Source: Serinicoccus hydrothermalis
Lineage (GTDB): Bacteria; Actinomycetota; Actinomycetes; Actinomycetales; Dermatophilaceae
DNA length: 64,000 nt
NCBI RefSeq assembly: GCF_001685415.1
Contig: NZ_CP014989.1
Coordinates: 186,001-250,000, forward strand
Direction of reading: 5' to 3'
Numbering within the stretch: position 1 is the stretch's first letter; each line of letters begins with the position of its first letter. The notes under the pieces were generated by a model. The model made no database searches, was not told where the DNA came from, and saw only the letters and a list, made by a program, of their open reading frames with translations. Made by a program: the position numbers and the translations under genes. Positions 32,299-33,659 of the stretch are shown one piece after another.

Positions 32299-32430
32299 GA
32301 CCGGCCGCACGGTTTGCTCCGACTGGCCGCGCGGTTTGCGTCGACCGGCCGCGCGGTTTGCGTCGACCGGCCGCGCGGTTTGGTCCGACTGGCCGCGCGG
32401 TTTGGTCCGACTGGCCGCACGGTATGCCGT
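32299..32430 (+). repeat. Left repeat array: six contiguous 22-bp units
   Basis: Six head-to-tail units of exactly 22 bp: 32299-32320, 32321-32342, 32343-32364, 32365-32386, 32387-32408, 32409-32430. All share the core GGCCGCRCGG followed by TTTG (TATG in the last). Each unit begins GACCGG or GACTGG and ends GCGTC, GGTCC or GCTCC. There are no spacers. The array begins two bases after the nusB stop and ends on the first base of the stop codon of the minus-strand AbiEi-like gene. Units point toward that gene. Confidence 0.95.
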
Positions 32431-33521
32431 CAGCCAGCCCGGCGCTTCCGGCGGCGGTAGCGAAGGTCCTCGGCGTCGACCGACGGTGTCTCCACGGAGA
32501 AGGGGAGCCGGCGCGCCTCGCCCTGATAGACGACATACCCCCGGAACTGCTCAGGACGGGAGGCCGCGAAGGCACCGCGCACGCGGGCGCACACGGCCTC
32601 AGGCTGATCGCGGACCTCGTCTGGCGTCCACCGCACGAAGGGCAGCCCCAGCTCCTCGATCGGCGCCTGTCGCCGCCGCTCCGCCTCGAGCCGGTCCCGC
32701 GCCACCTCCTCGAGTGGGCGATCGTCGCCAGGTTCGCGCAGGAAGTACTTGCTCTGCCCGTCGCACTCGCCCGCCACACCGACGTGCGGCCAGAGGCCGT
32801 CGAGCCGCGCCATCCATCGCTGGTGCTCGTCGAGGACGTCCACCTGGTGCAGCGGCATGGGTATGCCCAGGAGGTGGAGGCGCCCGAACGTGTACGACTC
32901 GGCCCACGACTCGCGGAGAGGGTCGGCCAGCCTGAGCACGGCCAGGGCGCGAGGGCGTCCTCGCCAGCGCCGCTGGGTGTCCAGCGCTCGTCGGACCTCG
33001 TCCATCGTGACCTGGCCCTCGCGCAGCGCGGCGTCGAGCAGTGCCAGGCCGTGCGGCACCGTGCGCACCCGCAGGAAGTCCGCGACGGTTCGCGGCCTCG
33101 TCGTCGTGAGGCGGCCGTCGATCTCCTCGACCGGGGTCTCGATCTTGGCGCTGTGCAGGCCGAGCTCGGGCTCACGTCGTGAGACCGGGGCACGTCGCAC
33201 GGCGGTGAGGTCGACCTCGGCCCCAGGACGAATGCTGACGGCGAACCGGTGGACGATCGCGCCACTCGTGTGGCTCGCGGCATGGCCGGGGCGCCTCCGG
33301 AGTTCGAGGTCAAGCTGCGCGAGATGGTCGGCGCGGTGCTCCTCCCACTTCTCCGTCAGCGGCGGTGCGGGCCCTGCCTTGGCATACCAGCCGTGGCGGA
33401 GCCACCGGATCTCGCCACGGTCGATCGCGCGATCGACATCGGCTCGGGTGGCCCCGGTGCCCAGCGCCTCGCCCAGTCGGAACACGTCAGGGAGCAGCGT
33501 CAGGTCCATGCCGACGATCAT
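32430..33521 (-). CDS. Orphan AbiEi-antitoxin-like protein with DUF559-type nuclease fold
   Basis: Minus-strand gene, 363 residues from ATG 33521 (MIVGMDLTLLPDVF; a second ATG at 33509 is possible). Residues 10-48 form a winged-helix module of the AbiEi N-terminal type (GATRADVDRAIDRGEIRWLR then HGWYA). The middle (80-200) matches AbiEi-family antitoxin cores. Residues 205-305 look like the DUF559/Vsr-related PD-(D/E)XK fold: ARLDGLWP (Asp241), GECDGQSKY (Glu252, Asp254, Lys258), a Glu/Arg helix and LGLPFVRWTPDEV. No AbiEii toxin is adjacent; neighbours are nusB and pyrR. AbiEi proteins bind repeats in their own promoter, so the flanking arrays may be operators. The function of such orphan genes, which I believe are common in actinobacteria, is not known to me. 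Confidence 0.8.
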   Translation of the reverse strand: MIVGMDLTLLPDVFRLGEALGTGATRADVDRAIDRGEIRWLRHGWYAKAGPAPPLTEKWEEHRADHLAQLDLELRRRPGHAASHTSGAIVHRFAVSIRPGAEVDLTAVRRAPVSRREPELGLHSAKIETPVEEIDGRLTTTRPRTVADFLRVRTVPHGLALLDAALREGQVTMDEVRRALDTQRRWRGRPRALAVLRLADPLRESWAESYTFGRLHLLGIPMPLHQVDVLDEHQRWMARLDGLWPHVGVAGECDGQSKYFLREPGDDRPLEEVARDRLEAERRRQAPIEELGLPFVRWTPDEVRDQPEAVCARVRGAFAASRPEQFRGYVVYQGEARRLPFSVETPSVDAEDLRYRRRKRRAG

Positions 33522-33560
33522 GTCCAGGTATGCCCAGGAGTGGGACGGTGCGAGCGAATC

Positions 33561-33569
33561 TGTGGATAA
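33561..33569 (-). promoter_or_regulatory. Perfect DnaA-box sequence (TTATCCACA)
   Basis: The minus strand reads TTATCCACA (plus strand TGTGGATAA), the exact consensus DnaA box, between the right repeat array and the start of the AbiEi-like gene. It is AT-rich for this genome and lies where the gene's promoter should be. It is single, so it is not an origin; binding is unproven. Confidence 0.4.
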
Positions 33570-33571
33570 CA

Positions 33572-33659
33572 CGCGCAGACCGTGCGGCCGGTCGACGCAT
33601 ACTGTGCGGCCGGTCGAACCAAACCGTGCGGTCGGTCGACGCAAACCGTGCGGCCGGTC
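33572..33659 (-). repeat. Right repeat array: four contiguous 22-bp units, inverted
   Basis: Four units of exactly 22 bp in the orientation opposite to the left array: 33572-33593, 33594-33615, 33616-33637, 33638-33659. Read on the minus strand they carry the same core, GGCCGCACGGTTTG with single changes. Both arrays therefore point inward at the gene between them. The unit nearest the gene is the most diverged (TCTGCGCG end). The array begins 50 bases upstream of the gene's start codon and ends 100 bases before pyrR. Confidence 0.95.

Follow-up and report, generated by a model that had tools for sequence, protein, structure and literature searches.

A single minus-strand gene lies between nusB and pyrR in Serinicoccus hydrothermalis and is framed by two inverted arrays of 22-bp repeats. 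This arrangement raises the question of whether the gene and the repeats belong together and, if so, what the protein does with its repeats. The window analysed here is the whole stretch of 64,000 nucleotides that contains this locus. The features that matter are as follows.

31883..32296, + strand: nusB, left neighbour (Pfam NusB, E 1e-30)
32298..32429, + strand: left array, six 22-bp units, consensus CGACCGGCCGCRCGGTTTGCGT (TRF and unit search)
32430..33521, - strand: predicted gene for an AbiEi-like and Vsr/DUF559-like endonuclease, 363 aa (alternative ATG 12 nt downstream)
32922..33521, - strand: N-terminal AbiEi-like region, aa 1-200 (winged helix and AbiEi-type domain)
32553..32915, - strand: C-terminal Vsr/DUF559-like endonuclease region, aa 203-323
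33561..33569, - strand: DnaA-box-like motif TTATCCACA, present once in the 64-kb window, between the start codon and the right array
33573..33660, - strand: right array, four 22-bp units, inverted, upstream of the gene (TRF and unit search)
33759..34337, + strand: pyrR, right neighbour (phosphoribosyltransferase domain, Pfam PF00156, E 1.8e-22; name from context)

The window opens within a 23S rRNA gene, and 5S rRNA comes next (1-1586).

Both arrays have a period of 22 bp with no indels. The left array begins just past the nusB stop codon (32294-32296) and abuts the stop codon of the nuclease gene, and the right array is located between the start of the gene and pyrR, with approximately 50 bp separating it from the ATG at 33521. 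The original prediction had described this placement, the opposite orientation of the arrays facing inward at one minus-strand gene (32430-33521) and the two neighbouring genes, and all of these were confirmed; Pfam identifies NusB and a phosphoribosyltransferase domain, with the name pyrR given by context. It had also described ten exact 22-bp units. The counts of six and four and the period hold, but the units are near-exact, with TRF match levels of 88% in the left array and 84% in the right array. The array arms (86 nt) show 86% complementarity. With up to two mismatches, the core of the unit, GGCCGCRCGGTTTG, occurs 16 times in the window compared with a shuffle mean of 2.78. None of 100 shuffles reached this count, and chance is thus excluded for the window arrays.

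The gene product

The encoded protein is probably a DNA-binding and DNA-cutting enzyme that joins an AbiEi-like part to a Vsr/DUF559-like endonuclease. An AbiEi-type fold is present in the N-terminal part, which has structure matches to 6y8q and 1zel; in this fold lies the likeness to the AbiEi antitoxins of type IV (AbiE) systems, including Rv2827c. The Pfam model AbiEi_4 scores 13.5 bits on the protein, under the 25-bit cut-off, and matches 12 of 17 family members at E <= 1 (best 9.9e-10), whereas DUF559 matches one of the 17 (0.061). For the C-terminal region, a PD-(D/E)XK-type fold of the Vsr/DUF559 subgroup was found, with 11-19% identity to Vsr, 3r3p (presumably EDxHD) and 3hrl (presumably carrying a DUF559 label). 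The nuclease part alone yielded no Foldseek match with E below 0.001, a profile search of PDB sequences yielded no match, and NCBIfam yielded nothing useful. Asp241, Glu252, Asp254 and Lys258 (D241, E252, D254 and K258) are invariant in 17/17 family members. These acidic and basic residues resemble those of an active site and may be catalytic. The gene is under purifying selection (dN/dS = 0.23 against the relative G040; 0.20-0.25 over three pairs) and seems to be inherited mainly vertically.

Membership in two known groups was rejected. None of the 17 members matches the Y1/HuH transposase model (Transposase_17) at E <= 1, which separates this AbiEi-Vsr fusion from the RAYTs. No AbiEii (DUF1814) toxin gene adjoins the window gene, whose neighbours are nusB and the phosphoribosyltransferase gene, and the gene is therefore not assigned to AbiE; it also differs from AbiE in its added nuclease domain and in having arrays on both sides and genome-wide. 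From Vsr, I-Bth0305I (EDxHD) and the DUF559-like endonucleases, the nuclease here differs in its fusion to an AbiEi-like part and in its link with repeats.

Repeats in the genome and across the genus

The units are dispersed through the chromosome. With up to one mismatch, the core matches the 3.6-Mb chromosome 116 times (75 forward, 41 reverse), compared with 2 matches (1 and 1) for the reversed pattern. The own-genome stretches that were read contain 151 units, grouped in 31 clusters of which one consists of a single unit, and at least one further array site, at 3393904, lies outside these clusters. According to our home-made gene caller, 30 of the 31 clusters are located outside called genes, and 21 are no more than 20 bp from the 3' end of a gene, some of them starting on its TGA. 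Among the ten convergent pairs of arrays listed, the centre is 5-6 bp in six and 27 bp in two. The 116 chromosome-wide matches reject arrays private to the gene. Of the self-contained cassette that had been predicted, the gene-repeat link therefore stands, and the privacy does not, because units occur at dozens of other sites. The prediction had set this cassette against a core scattered genome-wide and unlinked to such genes; the units are indeed genome-wide, and the relatives described below show that the link to the gene is real.

Twenty of the 31 clusters, those for which an orthologous G040 stretch was compared, occur at the same place in G040. Spread is thus slow or old, and turnover of existing arrays is probably more frequent. 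Target-site duplications were not found. Single tandem units have no significant hairpin tendency (z -1.9 to 1.1, 13 units), and hairpin-forming single units are probably not the defining feature.

Several further elements accompany these arrays. Among the 151 units, subtypes with CACGGTTTG and CGCACTTTG cores are often found on opposite arms of convergent pairs, which recalls the Y and Z units of E. coli BIMEs. At several own array sites, sometimes between convergent arrays, there is also a second imperfect palindrome, GGAATTCGAC...GTCGAATTCC, approximately 54 bp long (2358790-2358843 and 2358903-2358956 at L055; also L050, L052, L036 and L056). A 438-nt ORF is framed by convergent 22-bp arrays at 1997087-1997732 (L053) and also in G040 (L100); it was not among the relatives of the nuclease gene in protein and profile searches.

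Arrays at dozens of gene-less sites would suit a passive origin, in which slippage arrays are common in the genus and the gene merely lies among them. The homologues of the gene bear on this possibility. In a protein search at E <= 1e-10, 22 of 31 genus genomes (own included) have a match. A tandem array of TRF score >=80 adjoins 24/24 near-full-length genus homologues (own included); arrays are present on both sides of 18 at this score and of 20 at any score, and they point inward at the gene. Of the remaining cases, L068, L070 and L072 show few units on the second side by eye, L115 has one side by TRF, and one array of L081 lies beyond an extra ORF. L076 has a 41-bp period on one side and is labelled 22 from the other side. 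The tree described below excludes two partial homologues at contig ends, of which L083 has an 18-bp array and L082 has none by TRF. By comparison, 13 noncoding arrays of score >=80 were found in 369,532 bp of control sequence (19 stretches, own genome and 15 congeners). At least three of these control arrays (L128, L135, L138) resemble the unit of their host genome, a point in favour of a passive origin.

The period follows the protein. Although ACCG occurs near the start of 16 of the 17 listed units (the exception is the second unit of G002), the units then diverge, and lineages differ in their unit sequence. When the 24 proteins are placed in a maximum-likelihood tree, the 12 with a period of 21-23 bp and the 12 with a period of 32-33 bp lie on opposite sides of one branch (support 86/94). 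A single change thus accounts for the period on the protein tree, and none of 500 shuffles was as low, a test that is inflated by near-copies. Independent of this test, six genomes (G040, G004, G011, G039, G044 and G017) have one gene from either clade, and both genes show the period of their own clade. The locus does not explain the period, because both types occur at nusB-pyrR: 22/23-bp versions in G000 (the own genome), G040 and G041, and 32/33-bp versions in G009, G019 and G012.

Dispersal likewise follows the unit that the gene carries. The core has 110 matches in G040. The unit CCGCACCGGACGCG has 185, 178, 200 and 161 matches in G011, G017, G039 and G044 (controls 15-20) and is near control in G000, G010, G041 and G042 (22, 23, 26 and 18 against 25, 14, 21 and 11). 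Intermediate counts were obtained for G016 (37 against 10) and G004 (55 against 15), whose second gene has a related unit. G043 is an exception, with 97 matches against a control of 20 although the gene is absent where its relatives carry it. At that locus of G043 (L237), the site is clean: its two flanking genes adjoin each other directly, with no nuclease gene between them, and one belongs to the 4-alpha-glucanotransferase family.

Periods of 21-23 or 32-33 bp correspond to two or three helix turns, which would suit same-face binding. The arrays could be binding sites only, that is, operators or anchors selected by the host for a regulator or nucleoid-type protein whose fold has no part in spreading them. 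This reading has precedents: according to part of the text of PMC7319586, the promoters of AbiEi genes contain 23-bp repeats to which the AbiEi proteins themselves bind, and in a passage of PMC8161180 Subirana and Messeguer proposed a protein requiring repeats of constant size. The 21 of 31 clusters close behind a gene 3' end are also compatible with it. However, the array sequence turns over between close species, and the nuclease residues are invariant; both observations speak against sites that serve binding alone.

Empty junctions, gene loss and distant homologues

Host-selected operators should survive loss of the gene, unless they are useless without the protein. The nusB junctions of the genus provide a comparison. 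Of 30 junctions, eight have a long family match, three have a fragment only (G038, G007 and G006) and 19 have no match. At TRF score 80, the latter two groups, 22 junctions in all, contain no array with a period of 20-23 or 32-33 bp; arrays remaining at nusB-pyrR in relatives without the gene, which the original prediction had named as evidence against a cassette, were thus not found. The G006 junction has a 27-bp repeat of 2.1 copies. The distance from the nusB stop codon to the conserved pyr leader is 42-62 bp in G011, G017, G039, G043, G044, G042, G008 and G020, and the nusB-pyrR junction is 1.05-1.26 kb long in G015, G018 and G006. Located 3' of nusB in G038 (L200), G007 (L206) and G006 (L209) are family-gene fragments of approximately 70-195 nt with 59-71% identity. 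These fragments are likely further gene losses.

A further comparison is offered by G021, the closest of five relatives compared (95.3% DNA identity over efp-nusB, against 93.0% for G040). Its junction is a deletion scar of 159 bp that retains a short remnant of the gene and, on either side, a single unit. A period-locked search found 21 tandem pairs in G021, compared with 128 in G000, 143 in G040, 0 in G041, 13 in G002 and 27 in G011, the last being the own unit of G011 at three mismatches. At 12 orthologous sites, the mean number of units is 5.25 in G000 and 2.17 in G021 (Wilcoxon p 0.001), and the mean TRF score is 156 and 20, respectively (Wilcoxon p 0.0005). Site by site, the score is lower in G021 at 12/12, and the units are fewer at 11/12 and equal at one. 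These 12 of the 31 own clusters were chosen for a remaining trace in G021, a choice that works against the observed shrinkage. At the sites compared in G040 (7 of the 12), the arrays equal those of G000 except at 357593 (2 units against 5). The arrays have therefore shrunk after gene loss in this lineage; as one loss event in one lineage, this is a correlation. Decay at 12 sites also argues against host-selected binding sites, as does the observation that the distant paralogues described below mostly have palindromic elements rather than arrays. Taken together, an origin in binding alone is unlikely.

The association also extends to other genera. When 248 genomes of the order were searched with a profile, matches at E <= 1e-20 were found in 100 genomes, representing 44 of 86 genera; a scan of named genomes gave one distant match, in a Propionibacteriaceae MAG. 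Forty places were taken from the profile list, hand-chosen mostly from its top, one of which is an own paralogue, leaving 39 in other genomes. Flanks were scored by the best direct or inverted local match between the 450-bp flanks, with 267 genes as controls. The score is at or above the control 99th percentile for 23 of the 39 other-genome places and at or above the 95th for 30. The corresponding numbers for genus genes are 15/17 and 16/17, and at the 99th percentile 5/5 own paralogues pass compared with 0/51 other genes of the window. Nine of the 39 places, together with L081 within 450 bp, have no flank repeat above the control 95th percentile. Many flanks outside the genus are palindromes rather than tandem arrays, and the tandem periods range from 15 to 93 bp; whole helix turns are thus a rule of this genus only.

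Five distant paralogues are present in the own genome (94291, 149830, 2242216, 2746657, with gene bounds set by hand, and 3517650), each with a private element on both sides. By hand count that includes both flanks, these elements occur at 2, 11, 3, 12 and 9 places, respectively. Four of the five thus have copies elsewhere, in one of these four cases a single weak copy (75% identity). The elements have a palindromic appearance, and at one place both strands are matched by e4 and by part of e2. One chromosome thus contains six gene/repeat pairs. Such private repeats, together with the match between period and clade and the gene-less junctions that lack arrays, stand against passive slippage, which was rejected on the control stretches and the flank-score controls and is hardly credible as an explanation.

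The spread across genera also bears on a selfish role for the gene in a toxin-antitoxin, restriction-like or defence system, in which the repeats would protect, titrate or mark and their spread would be a by-product. The AbiEi-like N-terminus, the PD-(D/E)XK-type nuclease fold and the patchy presence in the genus are as expected of such a gene. However, an AbiEii partner is missing beside the window gene, and the flank repeats recur at unrelated loci across genera. To our knowledge, AbiE systems do not need flank repeats. We consider this role very improbable.

A promoter motif is also common among members of the family. In the window, it is represented by the sequence TTATCCACA, which we take to be a classical DnaA box. 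TCCACAG occurs within 350 bp upstream on the same strand in 17/24 genus genes, 26/40 of the fetched places and 2/4 further own paralogues, compared with 5/335 controls. A TCCACA pair spaced by 26-31 bp was found in 15/24, 13/40, 1/4 and 0/335, respectively. In many members (L066-L081, L144-L183 and others), TCCACA(G), often paired at a distance of 27-30 bp, lies between the 5' repeat and the start codon. As part of the more tentative proposal made below, the system would possibly be timed by replication through this motif.

A gene and its repeats

The gene and its repeats probably form a two-part genome-resident system, which resembles RAYT/REP systems and is built on an unrelated protein. The gene-array linkage, the dispersal, the period match and the array decay largely bear out the suggestion in the original prediction of a RAYT/REP-like unit with a PD-(D/E)XK protein. 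Simple autoregulation was rejected, because it leaves the downstream and genome-wide arrays unaccounted for. The comparison with relatives suggests that repeats of this kind are maintained and spread by their own protein, and we infer that it binds, nicks, copies and spreads the units. In the proposed mechanism, the AbiEi-like part would bind one protomer per unit on one helix face, so that units in this genus would be two or three helix turns long. Two AbiEi monomers bind two 23-bp repeats, as described in part of PMC7319586, which fits one protomer per 22-bp unit. The Vsr-like domain would nick within or beside the unit, and repair or slippage at the nick may then duplicate and homogenise units at a fixed helical phase. 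Rare events would seed new arrays, mostly just behind stop codons, and the arrays would be non-autonomous satellites of the gene.

The likeness to RAYT/REP systems comprises a gene between inverted repeats of one family, dispersed intergenic copies, convergent doublets, several gene/repeat pairs per genome and fewer repeats where the gene is missing. The features of REP/REPIN-RAYT (TnpA-REP) systems used for this comparison are those given in parts of PMC2817692 and PMC8049555. In contrast with REPs, the repeats of this genus are arranged in tandem, with units of two or three helix turns, rather than as hairpins. REP-type repeats with a known partner enzyme are, as far as we know, tied to one enzyme family, the RAYTs. 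Among the PMC matches listed, by title and abstract opening and with preprints outside the search, no report links DUF559, AbiEi or Vsr nucleases to REP-like repeats; no PMC paper combines DUF559, inverted repeats and "transpos". The present data are evidence for an unrelated nuclease family in a RAYT-like role across a bacterial order, with a homologue in 44 of 86 genera.

The arrays also resemble a class of satellites without a known cause. Subirana and Messeguer (PMC8161180, in part) described noncoding tandem repeats in bacteria whose size is constant (20-23 or 52 nt) and whose sequence varies, and the cause is left unexplained in the portions of PMC8161180 and PMC6749651 that concern them. 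The likeness consists of a constant period, a variable sequence, intergenic location and several families per genome; noncoding one-size tandem repeats with unrelated sequences are present in this genus in two sizes. Unlike those satellites, for which the same part of PMC8161180 reports no associated gene, a nuclease gene is present here. The protein is therefore a clonable candidate for the one supposed in that paper, and a RAYT/REP-like nuclease partnership may explain 20-23-nt bacterial satellites.

More tentatively, and with somewhat more doubt than belief, we propose that these arrays are protein-programmed satellite DNA. The protein clade would set a unit of whole helix turns in this genus, while the sequence would drift with specificity; this would supply a cause for such satellites and represent a second, independent invention in the style of RAYT/REP. 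The coexistence of two clades in one genome, with arrays of 22 and 32 bp, makes the relation of unit size to protein open to direct test in a laboratory host. If the proposal is true, protein-programmed satellites would be the missing cause of the 20-23-nt, and perhaps the 52-nt, satellites of many bacteria.
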